IMG/VR virus record: IMGVR_UViG_3300009285_002477
Location: 1-20,575 of that record
DNA length: 20,575 nucleotides
Source of the DNA: a virus
Reading direction: 5' to 3' (one strand)
Shown piece by piece: positions 2,088 to 17,804 of this stretch. The stretch's first letter is position 1; each line of letters opens with the position of its first letter. The position numbers and the translations under genes were made by a program. The notes under the pieces were generated by a model. It searched no databases. It was not told where the DNA came from and was given only the letters and a program-made list of their open reading frames with translations.

Positions 2088-2473
2088 CGAACCTCGCACG
2101 CTAGCCCCGGCACCTCTCCGTAAACCTTCCCCACCAGCGCCTCGATGACCTGCGCGTCGTCAGAGAACACCACGCCGCTCATGGCGTCCAGTCCAGCACG
2201 TGCCAGTTTGTCCACGTCCGGCCGCACCGTGGGGAACGGCCGGCGCTTGGGCGACACGCTCGCGGGGCGGACTAGCGTGAACACCATCACAAGCGATACC
2301 GGGCCGGTGAGGATGCCGTGAGGCCAGTCCTGTAGCACGAAGCGGATCGTCTCCTCCCAGCGCCGGACCCCCGGGTTGTCGCTTGTCACGATCGCGCGCC
2401 CGTTGCGGACGAAGGCGCGAGCGCTGCCCTTCGGTTGGGGCTCGCCCTTCACGGTGAACGACCAGGAGCTCAC
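2081..2473 (-). CDS. rusA: RusA-family Holliday junction resolvase
   Basis: 130 residues with a GTG start that overlaps the upstream stop as GTGA and has GAAGG seven bases before it; an ATG at 2491 is the alternative. The N-terminus has the family's PQPKGSARAF (12-21) motif. The acidic metal-binding residues appear as RPDVDKLARAGLDAM (84-98: D86, D88, D96) and FSDDAQV (103-109: D105, D106). RusA enzymes cut four-way DNA junctions, and in phages they process recombination or replication intermediates before packaging. It sits with a RecT-type annealer and a replication initiator, which fits a recombination-linked replication module. Confidence 0.9.
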   Translation of the reverse strand: MSSWSFTVKGEPQPKGSARAFVRNGRAIVTSDNPGVRRWEETIRFVLQDWPHGILTGPVSLVMVFTLVRPASVSPKRRPFPTVRPDVDKLARAGLDAMSGVVFSDDAQVIEALVGKVYGEVPGLACEVRW

Positions 2474-2847
2474 GTCGTCGCCTTCCCGCACTGGTAACGC
2501 TCATACACCTCCGCCGCGTCGGTGCAGCAGACGCACGGTCCCTTGCCTGAAAGCGCCCGGCCCCGATGATAGCGCTCGTACAGCGCGCTCGCCTCCGCCT
2601 GGCCTTTCACGTCCACCACAGCGGCTGCCTGGATCACGCCCTTGCGAAGAAGGCTCACCATGTAGCCAAACGGCTTTTGGACAGCGTATCCGTTCGCCAT
2701 CTCGTCCTGAACTTGAGACAGCGCCGCCCGAACAAGCGGAACGCCATACTCGTCAACGATGGGCGCAACGGTATCTGTGCGGATTCCCCAAGCTTGAGCG
2801 ACTTCCATAATGGCCGCGTCAACTTCGGCCTCTATGTCGTACGGCAA
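2470..2847 (-). CDS. Probable replication accessory protein, DnaD-like
   Basis: 125 residues from a TTG start with AGAGAGGA nine bases upstream; no ATG or GTG is available. Residues about 8-68 resemble the helical C-terminal domain of phage DnaD-type replication proteins: alternating Val/Ala helices followed by a pattern like NGYAVQKPFGYMVSLLRKG (52-70), where those proteins have a conserved NPxxY/GY-loop-LR motif. The C-terminus has a CVCC (105-108) and later Cys113-like spacing, possibly a metal site. It directly follows the winged-helix initiator, suggesting the two domains usually fused in one protein are split here. Assignment is by resemblance only. Confidence 0.55.
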   Translation of the reverse strand: MPYDIEAEVDAAIMEVAQAWGIRTDTVAPIVDEYGVPLVRAALSQVQDEMANGYAVQKPFGYMVSLLRKGVIQAAAVVDVKGQAEASALYERYHRGRALSGKGPCVCCTDAAEVYERYQCGKATT

Positions 2848-2867
2848 TTCGTAACGTCCTCTCTTTG

Positions 2868-2985
2868 CTTTCTGGTACTGGAACTGTTCAGTACCAGTTC
2901 CAGATATGCTACGAAGTAGCTTCCTTTCCTACGGGACTACGGGTAACGGGCTACGGGAGACGGGTATCGCGCGGGTACGCGCGTG
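2868..2985. other. Candidate replication origin
   Basis: The block contains, in order, a relatively AT-rich stretch, the overlapping palindromes at 2872-2903, the palindrome at 2908-2920, five copies of ACGGG starting at 2931, 2939, 2946, 2953 and 2960 (spacing 8, 7, 7, 7), and a 6-bp GC stem CGCGCG-GGTA-CGCGCG at 2968-2983. The repeats encode the Pro-rich tail of the replication initiator. Lambdoid phages place their iterons inside the initiator gene, so this arrangement suggests an origin. Function is inferred from structure and position only. Confidence 0.5.
2872..2903. repeat. Two overlapping, mutually exclusive inverted repeats
   Basis: CTGGTACTG (2872-2880) pairs with CAGTACCAG (2889-2897). 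CTGGAACTG (2878-2886) pairs with CAGTTCCAG (2895-2903). Each is a perfect 9-bp stem with an 8-base loop, and they share bases so only one can form at a time. A further GCTAC-GAA-GTAGC palindrome lies at 2908-2920. They fill the only sizeable gap in the replication module, between the initiator stop and the DnaD-like start. Candidate protein-binding site, origin element or attenuator. Confidence 0.75.
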
Positions 2986-3366
2986 AACTTCGCTACCCTG
3001 TTCACCTTGAACGTTCGCGTCTTGTTCGCCGTCTTGTTCGCGGGAACGCAACTCGCTCATTCGCAGTTTCGCCGCCGCTCGCTTCGCAAGAACACGCTCT
3101 GCTGGAGGGTTGTAGTCTAGCCAGTCGTGGATGAAGTACCCGGCAGGATGATCCTCCCAGAGACCAGCGCTCACCAGCTCAGCAGCATGGCGCTTGCTGG
3201 CGCCGGCGTTCGTCCTGATGCCAGGAAGGTACCCGCTGGCGATAACGCCATCCGTCAGGTGCTTCGCCGAATGGGCAAGGCTGGCAAGGAAGAGGAGCCG
3301 GGCCAACGGACTCACCGACACCACCTTGCGGTGCTCAAAGAAGGAGTCGTCTAGCTTAGCCCACAT
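2929..3366 (-). CDS. Phage replication initiation protein, winged-helix N-terminal type
   Basis: 145 residues. The N-terminus MWAKLDDSFFEHRKV matches the winged-helix DNA-binding start of many phage replication initiators, continued by LTDGVIASGYLP (37-48) and GLWEDHPAGYFIHDWLDYNP (68-87). Residues about 88-120 are a basic helix rich in Lys, Arg and Ala. The C-terminus ends in a low-complexity Pro/Val/Ser tail encoded by the tandem repeats of the candidate origin. Its start lies 11 bases inside the preceding wHTH gene. It probably binds the origin and loads replication proteins together with the DnaD-like product downstream. No helicase or primase domain is present in it. Confidence 0.75.
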   Translation of the reverse strand: MWAKLDDSFFEHRKVVSVSPLARLLFLASLAHSAKHLTDGVIASGYLPGIRTNAGASKRHAAELVSAGLWEDHPAGYFIHDWLDYNPPAERVLAKRAAAKLRMSELRSREQDGEQDANVQGEQGSEVHARTRAIPVSRSPLPVVP

Positions 3367-7997: not shown

Positions 7998-8708
7998 TCA
8001 ACTGAACGGGCTCCTGCCGTGGGTCGATCCGGCCCCGCTGCCTCTCGGGCCATCGCCGCCCGGCAGGCAGGGCAAAACCCGTTCGGGCAAGGGGGTGCGG
8101 CGATTGGAGATGTACCCTGCCTGCGAGGAAGCGATGGCGATGTTTCTTGCGTTTTGGCGTAGGCGTCGGCAGGGCCGACATTCACGTTTACCACTTGGGA
8201 GGCGACAGGTGTTGATTTCATTTAAGGGATGGCCGCGTAGGCAATGGGTTTGCCGTGCAGCGCGGGCCGATGGCCCATCTCCCCGTAATACGTTTTCTCG
8301 CGGAGTGACGGGTTCGATGTGGGCGGGAAAGATGCAGGGGCGATTCCGGCAGAGATGGTCGGACTCAAGCCCTTCGGGGATCGGGCCGACCAGCGTCTCA
8401 TACGCGAAGCGATGCGCTTGCAGAAACCTAGCCGTACGATCCCGCCGGCTGCCAACCTTGAATCGTCCATATCCTGTGCGCCGTGTCGCCGTCCACTCCC
8501 AACACCCGTTCTCCAAGACGCGCACTTTCGCCCAGAAGCGGGCAGGCAAACGGGGATCGCCAAAGGTGAAAGATGCCGGGCCGGCGTCTGCCGCCACCGA
8601 CCCGGCTATGGGGGGCAAGCCCGTGACGCCTTTGGGGAGGGGATCACGGACCGGGGAGCCGATCAAAGGCTTGAGGCTGTGCGCCCCGTTGTCACGGGAA
8701 GACCCCAT
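7998..8708 (-). CDS. HNH homing-type endonuclease (first of two related copies)
   Basis: 236 residues. After an unusual 55-residue N-terminus comes the HNH_3-like core: RFWAKVRVLENGCWEWTA (57-74), AHRFAYETLVGPIPEG (98-113), D117-H118, H130 and PRENVLRG (136-143), then a C156/H160/C177/C180 finger. Same order and spacing as the next gene to the right, so the two are paralogues. Such free-standing enzymes spread themselves by cutting DNA. The last 45 residues do not match the paralogue and may be a fused or drifting tail. Ribosome binding site is weak; the start is uncertain. Confidence 0.8.
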   Translation of the reverse strand: MGSSRDNGAHSLKPLIGSPVRDPLPKGVTGLPPIAGSVAADAGPASFTFGDPRLPARFWAKVRVLENGCWEWTATRRTGYGRFKVGSRRDRTARFLQAHRFAYETLVGPIPEGLESDHLCRNRPCIFPAHIEPVTPRENVLRGDGPSARAARQTHCLRGHPLNEINTCRLPSGKRECRPCRRLRQNARNIAIASSQAGYISNRRTPLPERVLPCLPGGDGPRGSGAGSTHGRSPFS

Positions 8709-8712
8709 TGCT

Positions 8713-9279
8713 TTAACCGGCTCCCTGGGCCGTCATGCGCCGACGGTTCCTGTAGTGACGTTTGATTTCGCGCTTTCTCTCGCGATGAGACTTGTTGTAT
8801 GCGATGTAATATTCCCGCCGCCCTGGATAAGCTGCCCGGTCAAAGGCCAATTTACAGGCCAAACATCTGCGTCCACCGTCCGGACGAAGATAGAGATTCG
8901 CTCCACTCAATGGGTGCCCCTTATTGCAATGAGTCTTAGATGCGTTGATCGCGGTCGCCCCAAAGCCTCGTAGAATGTTCTCCCGCATCGTTACCGCTTC
9001 TAGATGACTTGGCCGAACGCAGGCCCTCACGCGACAAAGGTGATCGATGGTAAGTCCACTGGGAATCGGGCCAATAAGAAGCGAGTAGGCCAGACGGTGG
9101 CTTCGGAGATGCGAACCTTGCCACCAAAAATAACCGTATCCTCCAGCGCTGCGCGCCCCTGTCCACTCCCAGCAGCCATCATCGCCGAGCCGCACCTTGG
9201 CCCAGAAGCGCAGCGGCAACTTCTCGGTCAGTCCAGCGAACGCCGCACCGAAGGCTCCACTCTTCTCCTGGGCCGTCAT
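8713..9279 (-). CDS. HNH homing-type endonuclease (second copy)
   Basis: 188 residues, with GGAGG seven bases before the ATG. Core: RFWAKVRLGDDGCWEWTGA (24-42), SHRLAYSLLIGPIPSG (60-75), D79-H80, C87, H92 and MRENILRG (98-105), then C118/H122/C139/C142 as a zinc finger, and a basic C-terminus from about 160. Shares the full pattern with the copy four bases downstream. Codon use is less GC-biased than in its neighbours, which fits a mobile gene. The start is coupled (ATGA) to the small membrane peptide gene. Confidence 0.85.
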   Translation of the reverse strand: MTAQEKSGAFGAAFAGLTEKLPLRFWAKVRLGDDGCWEWTGARSAGGYGYFWWQGSHLRSHRLAYSLLIGPIPSGLTIDHLCRVRACVRPSHLEAVTMRENILRGFGATAINASKTHCNKGHPLSGANLYLRPDGGRRCLACKLAFDRAAYPGRREYYIAYNKSHRERKREIKRHYRNRRRMTAQGAG

Positions 9280-9368
9280 CGCAGCGCCTCCATGAGCGCC
9301 CACACCCAGGGGCCGACGCCGAAGCCGAGCATCGCCACGAGCATCAGCGTGAACAGCCGCTCGCTCAC
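9276..9368 (-). CDS. 30-residue membrane peptide
   Basis: GTG start overlapping the upstream stop (GTGA), with GGAGGA six bases before it, and a stop overlapping the HNH start (ATGA). The product, starting MSERLFTLMLVAMLGFGVG, is a single hydrophobic span with one Arg near each end. The arrangement of signals at both ends makes translation likely despite the size. Function unknown; small phage membrane peptides can act as holins or superinfection factors. Confidence 0.55.
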   Translation of the reverse strand: MSERLFTLMLVAMLGFGVGPWVWALMEALR

Positions 9369-9586
9369 GCCGTCTCCTCCGCCCTTCGCACGCTGATCCG
9401 CTGCTGGAAGCGCTCACCGGCTGCCATGAACGGCCGCAGGCAGCGCAGGCAGAACAGGGAGCCGCCACCGAGGGCGTAGGCTGGCCCGTCGCAGGTCACG
9501 CAGCGGGTCTCGTAGGCGGTGCCAGACCTCACGCGGGTGATCTGCGCTCGCGGCTTCGGGGGTGCGGCCAGCACTTCGACGCTCAC
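9365..9586 (-). CDS. Small zinc-ribbon-like protein
   Basis: 73 residues from a GTG; an earlier start at 9715 would overlap the preceding gene. CVTCDGPAYALGG (about 29-41) and CLRCLRPF (46-53) give a CxxC-x14-CxxC ribbon. Basic C-terminus. Probably binds zinc and perhaps nucleic acid. Stop overlaps the membrane peptide start. Confidence 0.6.
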   Translation of the reverse strand: MSVEVLAAPPKPRAQITRVRSGTAYETRCVTCDGPAYALGGGSLFCLRCLRPFMAAGERFQQRISVRRAEETA

Positions 9587-9915: not shown

Positions 9916-10467
9916 GTGAAGAAATCACGCCTCCCGGATTACCTGGAGCCCGACGAGCTCGACGCCCTGCTCGCCATCGCCCCGCCTCGGCACCGGCTGT
10001 ACTTTCTCCTGTGCGCCCGCGCCGGCCTGCGCGCCTCGGAGGCGGCCGCTCTGCGGGACGAGGACATCATCTGGCGCGACGGGGAGCCCGCGATCCTTCA
10101 CGTCATCGGCAAGGGGAACAAGGAGGCGCTGCTGCCGCTCGCCCTCTCCCTGCGGCGCTACCTCCCCGCCTTCACGCAACCCGCCCGGCGTGGCTGGCTG
10201 TTCGTCGGCTACAAGGGCGGGCACATGACGCGCGGTGCCGCCAGCGTCTGGCTGATGGCGGACGCGGCGAAGGCCGGGATCCCACGCTGCAAGGCGCACA
10301 TTCACGCCCTGCGCCACTCGTTCGCGACGCACCTGCTGCGCGCGGGGGTGGACCTGGTGACGATCAAAGAGTTGATGCGCCACGCCTCGCTGGTGAGCAC
10401 GCAGATCTATCTCCACGTGAACCCTGAGCGCTTACAGGGAGCGGTGGATATGCTGGACGGGGCCTAA
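9916..10467 (+). CDS. int: Tyrosine recombinase, catalytic domain only (integrase)
   Basis: 183 residues, GTG start with GGGGA just upstream. All catalytic residues are visible: R39 in ARAGLRASEA, K66 in IGKGNKE, H130-x-x-R133 in HALRHSFATHLL, H156 in LMRHAS and nucleophile Y165 in QIYLHV. Typical phage integrases are 300-400 residues with an arm-binding and a core-binding domain before the catalytic one; both are missing. It could act with a separate DNA-binding partner, or be a Xer-like resolvase. It faces the late operon head-on and the early operon back to back. Confidence 0.9.
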   Translation: MKKSRLPDYLEPDELDALLAIAPPRHRLYFLLCARAGLRASEAAALRDEDIIWRDGEPAILHVIGKGNKEALLPLALSLRRYLPAFTQPARRGWLFVGYKGGHMTRGAASVWLMADAAKAGIPRCKAHIHALRHSFATHLLRAGVDLVTIKELMRHASLVSTQIYLHVNPERLQGAVDMLDGA

Positions 10468-16493: not shown

Positions 16494-17188
16494 GGCCCCA
16501 GGAACGTCGCCCAGAGGTCGGGCGAGTAGTTGCCGACGCTGGTGACGTTGAGGGCTGCGGTGCTCACCTGGCGCACCATGAGCTCCAGATAATCCGTGGC
16601 GTTCAGGCGATAGTGGGTGCTGACGTTCTGAATGATGACCTCTGACCCGCTGTCCGCTTCGTCTACCTGGGTGCCGCCAAGGTTAGTAGCGGCGTTCGCC
16701 ACGATGCTCAGATAGCGTCTGCCAGTGGCGTTCGCCGCCCACTGGACGGAGCCACCGATGGCGTAGAGCCCGGTGTGCTGGATCGTGAGACGGGTTGGAG
16801 CGCCAATGACCCACATGTTGTCGTTGTCCCAGCGCTCGCCACTGAAGGAGATGGCGGTGGAGGTGTCGTTTGTGATCGATTGGTTGGTATCCCGGTAGGC
16901 CCTGACGTGCGGCACGGCCCCGCCGACGATGATCCAGGCGGCGCCGTCATCCAGCCAAACAACCTTCGGGTCATCCGTCGCGTAGTAGAGGCGGCCAGCC
17001 TCTCCGAAGGCCGGACGTGCGGCGTTCGTTCCTGAGAGATGGCGGTGCTTGATGGTGGTGGAGGACGTGTCGCCGTCCACAGCCAGCGATAGGACGTGCG
17101 CCCGGTCGCGAATCTCCTGATTCATATCGGCGGATGCCAACACCGCTGCCGCCCAACTTTTCAGCGTTGCAACCCACGTGTCGCTCAT
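16490..17188 (-). CDS. Tail protein with C1q-like C-terminal domain
   Basis: 232 residues. The first 80 carry a small phage tail motif (WAAAVLASADMNQEIRDRAH, 12-31), then RLYYATDDPKVVWLDDGAAW, common where fibre proteins join the tail. From about 95 on, the pattern VRAYRDTNQSITNDTSTAI, a long HTGLYAIGGSVQW and closing WATFLG resemble the C1q/TNF jelly roll, which forms trimers in phage fibres. The start is close to the plus-strand HNH gene, and reading from the tape measure side must pass through it. Confidence 0.65.
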   Translation of the reverse strand: MSDTWVATLKSWAAAVLASADMNQEIRDRAHVLSLAVDGDTSSTTIKHRHLSGTNAARPAFGEAGRLYYATDDPKVVWLDDGAAWIIVGGAVPHVRAYRDTNQSITNDTSTAISFSGERWDNDNMWVIGAPTRLTIQHTGLYAIGGSVQWAANATGRRYLSIVANAATNLGGTQVDEADSGSEVIIQNVSTHYRLNATDYLELMVRQVSTAALNVTSVGNYSPDLWATFLGP

Positions 17189-17190
17189 AG

Positions 17191-17219
17191 TTGCCCTACC
17201 TACCTACAACTGGTATCAT
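17191..17219 (+). promoter_or_regulatory. Putative promoter of the plus-strand HNH gene
   Basis: TTGCCC (17191-17196), 17 bp, then TATCAT (17214-17219) preceded by TGG as extended -10. Only six bases separate the -10 box from the ATG at 17226, so the transcript would be leaderless or nearly so. The HNH gene opposes its operon and needs its own promoter. Confidence 0.45.
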
Positions 17220-17225
17220 TGTGTT

Positions 17226-17804
17226 ATGAAGTCCATGCTTACTTGCGAACGGTGTCAATCCAGCTTTGAGATTCGGCGGGGTGATCGAGTGCGGCGCTTT
17301 TGCTCTCGTCTCTGTTGGTATAAGACGCCCCGCCAACACTCTGCCGAGGCGAAGGAAAAGATGGCCCTCAGTAAGCGCGGCGATCAGAACCCCGCTAAGC
17401 GCCCAGAGGTGCGGGCCAAGATTAGCGAATCGCTGCGCAAACTTGGCCCTCGCCCCCGCCCAAATTATGAAGCCCCGCGAGGGCCGCAGGCTCACAATTG
17501 GAGGGGTGGAGTCTGGCAACGCAAAGATGGTTATGTCATCGTCTGGATTCCACCCGATGAACGGCACAAGTGGCCGGAGATTTCCCGACAAGGCTACGTC
17601 TTCCGCTCTCATGCCGCATGGAATGAAGCCCACCCCGACGATCCCTGGCGACCGGGTGAGGTCATCCATCACCGCAATGGGATTAAGGACGATGACCGGC
17701 CAGCGAACCTTGAGAAGTTGGCGAACCAATCTAGTCACTTCCAGCATCACGCCAGCCTTCTCGCCGCCGTCAGGCAGCGGGATGCGCAGGGGCACTTCAT
17801 TTAG
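17226..17804 (+). CDS. HNH homing endonuclease with NUMOD3-like motif
   Basis: 192 residues from ATG at 17226; the earlier in-frame start at 17178 is less likely given the promoter. Order: zinc finger C7/C10/C26/C30; a NUMOD3-like helix region (41-72, AEAKEKMALSKRGDQ then VRAKISESLRKLG); and an HNH core with EVIHHRNGIKDDDRPANLEK (145-164) and HFQHH (171-175). It lies on the opposite strand between two tail genes with little spare DNA, as expected of a mobile free-standing homing endonuclease. Codons are less GC-biased at third positions than in neighbours. The minus strand over it carries a long open frame that I consider a shadow. Confidence 0.9.
   Translation: MKSMLTCERCQSSFEIRRGDRVRRFCSRLCWYKTPRQHSAEAKEKMALSKRGDQNPAKRPEVRAKISESLRKLGPRPRPNYEAPRGPQAHNWRGGVWQRKDGYVIVWIPPDERHKWPEISRQGYVFRSHAAWNEAHPDDPWRPGEVIHHRNGIKDDDRPANLEKLANQSSHFQHHASLLAAVRQRDAQGHFI

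Follow-up and report, generated by a model that had tools for sequence, protein, structure and literature searches.

A short-period repeat tract inside phage initiator genes as a probable replication origin of actinobacterial and uncultured phages

Does a cluster of short repeats and palindromes at the end of a phage replication initiator gene mark the place where the copying of the phage DNA begins? In the present study, this question was addressed in a virus record of 20,575 bases and high GC content (the window) and in its relatives, and the pattern observed probably does mark such a place, judged from sequence comparison. The early region on the minus strand of the window encodes a RecT-like protein, a small wHTH protein, the initiator (P0001), a helical protein (P0002), RusA, a J-domain protein and an HNH nuclease. 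By its N-terminal domain, P0001 is assigned to the winged-helix phage replication initiators of phrog_2447, a replication initiation protein profile matched over residues 1-125 (E=3.8e-28); phrog_3926 was also matched (E=1.9e-18), Pfam gave no match, and tblastn with P0001 matched 120 actinophage records. The P0001 ORF ends at 145 aa, compared with 240-320 aa including a C-terminal domain in most relatives, and a few relatives likewise have an initiator ORF ending near the repeats described below. The J-domain protein carries an HPD motif; it is encoded at 1114-1416 on the strand of the initiator (minus), about 1.5 kb further downstream. Since the helicase complex of lambda is activated by host DnaJ/DnaK, a part for a phage J-domain protein in replication is conceivable. 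Elsewhere in the window, HNH-like ORFs were observed at 7998-8708 and 8713-9468 (both minus) and at 17178-17804 (plus), the last on the opposite strand among structural genes. A tyrosine integrase of only 183 aa (9916-10467, plus), on the strand opposite to most other genes, contains the catalytic domain and lacks the N-terminal arm-binding domain. The features of the locus are collected in Table 1.

Table 1. Features of the initiator locus in window coordinates
Feature	Position	Strand	Remarks
P0002, 125-aa helical protein	2470..2847	-	TTG start, AGAGAGGA upstream
Dyad, 32 bp, with four TGGWAC half-sites (two overlapping palindromes)	2872..2903	.	
Hairpin GCTAC-TTC-GTAGC, 5-bp arms, 3-nt loop	2908..2920	.	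about 10 bp downstream of the tract
Single in-frame TAG between the initiator and P0002 frames	2929..2931	-	one 298-codon frame besides this stop
P0001, putative winged-helix replication initiator, 145 aa	2929..3366	-	TAG stop at 2931-2929
Short tandem tract of five CCCGT copies (coding-strand reading)	2931..2964	-	7-8 bp apart; last copy overlaps the stop codon
GC hairpin CGCGCG-GGTA-CGCGCG	2968..2983	.	6-bp perfect arms
GAAC/GTTC iteron-like cluster	2985..3064	-	7 GAAC/GTTC in 80 bp

The initial annotation had described five ACGGG units at 7-8 bp spacing with a 6-bp GC hairpin on one side, and both were confirmed: on the plus strand ACGGG starts at 2931, 2939, 2946, 2953 and 2960 (spacing 8, 7, 7 and 7 bp), which reads as CCCGT on the coding strand. 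The copy at 2931 runs into the stop codon of the initiator, which leaves four copies inside the P0001 ORF. ACGGG is the sole 5-mer with five copies in 40 bp across the 20.6-kb window, and when the window was shuffled 200 times with its dinucleotides preserved, any 5-mer reached this density in one shuffle; at least four copies inside the ORF were reached by 34 of 3000 synonymous-codon shuffles. The coding-strand reading of the array is ACCCGTC TCCCGTA GCCCGTT ACCCGTA GTCCCGTAG, and its 7-bp period crosses all three codon phases, so the array is not a peptide repeat. The adjoining GAAC/GTTC cluster is the densest in the window (P about 0.02) and includes two perfect tandem copies of the 12-mer CGTCTTGTTCGC (3018-3029 and 3030-3041, plus-strand reading). 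Because the signal is weaker under coding constraint and the palindromes alone are unexceptional, the window by itself provides moderate evidence, and it is the relatives that decide.

Loci were gathered from 20 actinophages, 4 uncultured phages and 80 further IMG/VR records; this last and largest search was independent of the tract, since its query was an alignment of the winged-helix region. The removal of near-duplicates and of loci too short downstream left 93, the window included, from phages of Gordonia, Arthrobacter, Streptomyces and Microbacterium and from uncultured phages. Each locus of about 5 kb was scored over its whole length, without bias as to place, for the best segment matching itself when shifted by 4-9 bases. 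In 80 of the 93 loci, the top repeat of period 4-9 falls between +200 and +900 of the initiator gene, in nearly every case between +350 and +640, after the winged-helix domain. Among the 78 loci in which the tract is clear, 68 have a 5-bp period; CCCGA is the commonest unit, and CCCGT, CCCAT, CCCTT, TCCAT, CCCCT, AAAGAT, AGAG, ACAG and ACGT also occur. The constraint acts on the DNA: in 68 of 88 genes the observed tract score was reached by at most 1 of 100 synonymous-codon shuffles, and the arginine codon CGA accounts for 57 of 91 within the tract compared with 170 of 1509 elsewhere. Of six complete genomes, five (Gudmit, Footloose, Shoya, Moosehead and MrSmee) have the tract as their strongest repeat of this kind, and in the sixth, Raleigh, it ties for the top. 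A search of the open-access literature, with most subscription journals and preprints outside its scope, found no description of the tract.

The elements around the tract also recur in a common order. Directly upstream are dyad repeats, for example GTCACGCGTGAC, GTTCGGGCGAAC/CGAACGTTCG, TAACGGTGTTAC and CGATGGCAAAACGATGGCAAA, and repeat coverage in the 130 bp upstream of the tract is 0.35 compared with 0.18 in control windows. Immediately downstream of the tract, 32 of 78 loci have a perfect hairpin whose arms measure 6 bp or more, compared with 4.3% of controls, an enrichment of about ten times. The iteron class agrees between nearest winged-helix neighbours in 30 of 48 loci, compared with 16% by shuffling (maximum 37.5% of 1000 shuffles), an agreement of which shared descent explains part. 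In three loci with a TCCAT tract (L035, L039 and L040) the element order is inverted, with GTGAC/GTCAC dyads downstream instead of upstream. The averaged profile contains no AT-rich unwinding element, mean GC being 0.59-0.66 from -400 to +500 around the tract. The window's tract lies at +402 of its initiator gene, homologous to the tracts in relatives, and GAAC/GTTC is among the two commonest iteron classes upstream of these tracts; its own tract was shared by none of its close relatives. Taken as sequence patterns, the CCCGT array, the GAAC/GTTC iterons and the hairpin at 2908-2920 are best described as a diverged version of the relatives' pattern.

Could such a tract be maintained for reasons other than an origin? 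It could be nothing more than the coding of a flexible proline-rich linker, or a slippage-prone microsatellite with no role in cis, as the position of the tract between the N- and C-terminal domains of most relatives and the PDPTR-like linkers encoded there would suggest. We consider this unlikely, since the peptide varies with the unit (PDPTR, PSHPI, IHSIPF, KDKDK, RERER) while the repetition is kept, and degenerate units retain the period. Comparison across related phages had been named beforehand as a check, conservation of the peptide without the repeats being the pattern that speaks against an origin, and the opposite was observed. Also against a linker are the loss of the tract upon synonymous shuffling in those 68 of 88 genes, the three codon phases of the window's array, and Dori and Sonali, whose short initiator ORF ends before the tract and leaves it non-coding. 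Alternatively, the tract, with its G3 runs spaced 5-7 bp apart, might be selected as a former of a DNA quadruplex or i-motif, which would serve as a roadblock or a regulatory structure that is not read by the initiator. The array is indeed the only G3N1-7 quadruplex motif in the window, and such a motif is also present in 65 of the 77 tracts considered in relatives. However, the 12 remaining tracts, in the same place (with TCCAT, AAAGAT, AGAG, ACAG, ACGT and other units), cannot form one, so that the quadruplex is not the common denominator; such motifs are scattered over the Raleigh genome, and the strict 5-bp period and the flanking iterons are left unexplained. A quadruplex role is possible for the tract, but as the reason for its existence it appears quite improbable.

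The palindromes require a separate account. The initial annotation had placed three of them in the initiator gene, two sharing bases, and had proposed an alternative-stem switch between the initiator and a downstream DnaD-like gene. The three are present, and two of them, at 2872-2897 and 2878-2903 (9-bp arms, 8-nt loops), share bases 2878-2897; however, all three lie outside the initiator ORF, in the 81-bp gap between the TAG (2929-2931) and the TTG of the next gene (2847). Palindromes of such size are not rare in the window (13 nested hits at 5 places compared with 6.2 nested hits per shuffle), and their weight derives from conservation and not from rarity. The conservation was found in L006, a 28-kb IMG/VR contig with a homologue of the P0002 gene (88% aa identity) and the same block upstream. 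The 51-bp block at 2874-2924 is identical at 49 of 51 positions, the hairpin at 2908-2920 without change, compared with 78.5% DNA identity in the adjacent gene (P=5e-4 against gene divergence); the 76 changes in that gene fall mostly on third codon positions (12/7/57). Apart from P0002 and HNH-like genes, one of which is matched by the window's ORFs at 7998-8708 and 8713-9468, the genes of L006 have no match to the window, and neither an initiator nor a tract was found on this contig, which is a fragment. The dyad block and P0002 thus form a cassette (L006 4919-5366, window 2498-2924) in two otherwise largely unrelated phages; in L006 it is inserted against the late-gene direction, the block lying in a divergent intergenic region ahead of the P0002 homologue. 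A search with the dyad pattern found nothing in genome contigs and only L006 in viral contigs, and the window's block had no match to known phages at the DNA level.

Alternative RNA stems that switch between expression of the initiator and of the gene downstream would be consistent with the shared bases and with the fold of the window RNA (z=-2.0). This reading is extremely improbable, because both block differences in L006 fall on W positions, so that each of the proposed stems has one mismatch and no compensatory change, the L006 RNA folds as a different, single imperfect hairpin (z=-1.84), and the block there precedes the downstream gene without an initiator. The palindromes are better read, from their sequence, as a single 32-bp dyad of TGGWAC half-sites, and the 49/51 identity together with the uncompensated W-position changes suggests that the block is a DNA site bound by a protein and associated with P0002. 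It is quite possible, though somewhat less likely than not, that the part at 2872-2924 serves P0002 or another regulator as an operator or binding site, in a cassette independent of the origin; its sharing with an otherwise largely unrelated phage that shows no initiator, and its identity beyond the divergence of the gene, suggest as much, whereas L006 is only a fragment and the block in the window directly follows the tract, where relatives carry a hairpin. An operator is compatible with an origin, since it accounts for the palindromes only and not for the repeats. In the window the block adjoins the origin elements and may be an extra origin binding array, an operator of P0002, or both.

P0002 itself might belong to the initiator. 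The two genes share one frame (2470-3366, minus) consisting of 145 aa, the TAG, 27 codons and 125 aa, with 152 codons beyond the TAG, which is located inside the repeat array; a joint 298-codon protein would match full-length relatives in size, with the tract in its usual place. Among the C-termini of relatives, P0002 weakly matches the C-terminal domain of the initiator of L045 (E=3e-4), the nearest relative by winged helix. The DnaD-like character ascribed to this gene is unproven: this L045 C-terminus is its only match, and Pfam, PHROGs and NCBIfam gave no DnaD/DnaB_2 profile match up to E=10. No match was obtained in Pfam, PHROG, NCBIfam or PDB sequences, no hit at E<=0.001 by Foldseek with a model of low confidence, and no homologue in phages and bacterial genomes; against plasmids, one non-significant match (E=0.5) was to a Variovorax replication initiation protein. 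Since an open frame would be shared by chance in perhaps 1 of 6 cases by our rough estimate, it is likely, short of proof, that P0001 and P0002 are a split initiator, with P0002 as a candidate C-terminal or helicase-recruiting partner. The TAG may reflect a split gene, a nonsense mutation or a sequencing error. Recoding of TAG as glutamine was also considered and found no support, TGA being the dominant stop and large genes being open without TAG.

We therefore return to the origin embedded in the initiator, as the initial annotation had suggested. A tract with upstream iterons and often a downstream hairpin, at the same place in most relatives, supports it, and iterons inside or next to the initiator gene are present in the relatives and in the window alike. 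As far as sequence can tell, the block probably forms the central portion of a phage replication origin that lies within the initiator gene, towards its 3' end, in the fashion of lambda O and SPP1 gene 38. Herein, we infer the following order of events for a replication start at the block. The winged-helix domain of the initiator would bind the dyad iterons (GAAC/GTTC in the window phage); the adjacent tract (CCCGT, 7 bp apart) with its hairpin would be a second element serving strand opening, the loading of the helicase machinery, or both; and helicase recruitment would fall to P0002, as a C-terminal partner whose frame continues that of the initiator past one TAG. Several observations count against an origin: another repeat in its locus outranks the window's own 7-bp tract by the unbiased score, none of the close relatives shares this tract, the averaged profile lacks an AT-rich unwinding element, and L006 has the block and P0002 without tract or initiator. 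The proposed check by GC skew was uninformative or mildly against, the extrema lying elsewhere than the tract in the window and in six complete relatives; as these were at genome ends or mid-genome in the relatives, skew was dropped as an origin marker. The averaged profile being devoid of an AT-rich stretch, we call the arrangement a variant of the initiator-embedded origin.

More tentatively, we hypothesize that there is a widespread class of phage origins in which a GC-rich short-period tract replaces the AT-rich unwinding element between dyad iterons and hairpin, and serves the initiator or its partner as a ruler for strand opening or helicase loading. The unit in such a class might be mostly CCCGA every 5 bp, and CCCGT every 7 bp in the window, the tract perhaps showing in the protein as linkers of the PDPTR type. 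If so, PDPTRPDPTR linkers would be explained as origin DNA showing through, and a specific origin candidate would be available for many phages, actinobacterial and uncultured, with initiators that mostly carry the label 'hypothetical protein'. A GC-rich tract instead of an AT-rich unwinding element also raises the mechanistic question of how such origins open. With its wide distribution and no apparent description in the searchable literature, the tract is of fair general interest.

Among known systems, the DnaA-trio of bacterial oriC is a short repeated motif beside initiator boxes, used for strand opening; its 3-bp unit is read by the AAA+ protein DnaA, whereas the units here are GC-rich, of 5-7 bp and next to a winged-helix initiator, and the likeness is one of analogy only. 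RepA of the mycobacterial prophages Miko and Rachaly, a plasmid-type initiator of extrachromosomal prophages, is likewise an actinophage initiator with an origin suspected at or within its gene, and, unlike here, no short tandem tract is described in the part of the source considered (PMC7157519). In SPP1, the direct repeats of oriL lie inside the initiator gene, gene 38, and are bound by its product gp38 (PMC6316719), similar to the repeats inside the present initiator gene; however, neither the AT-rich unwinding element of SPP1 nor a second origin like its oriR was seen here. The lambdoid origin lies inside gene O, in the linker after the DNA-binding domain, with inverted-repeat iterons followed by a second element (PMC7466680), and the relatives described here share both this location inside the initiator gene and this order. 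The present proteins match phrog_2447 and not lambda O, and the second element of the present loci combines a GC-rich tandem tract (period 4-9 bp) with a hairpin, in contrast to the AT-rich one of lambda.
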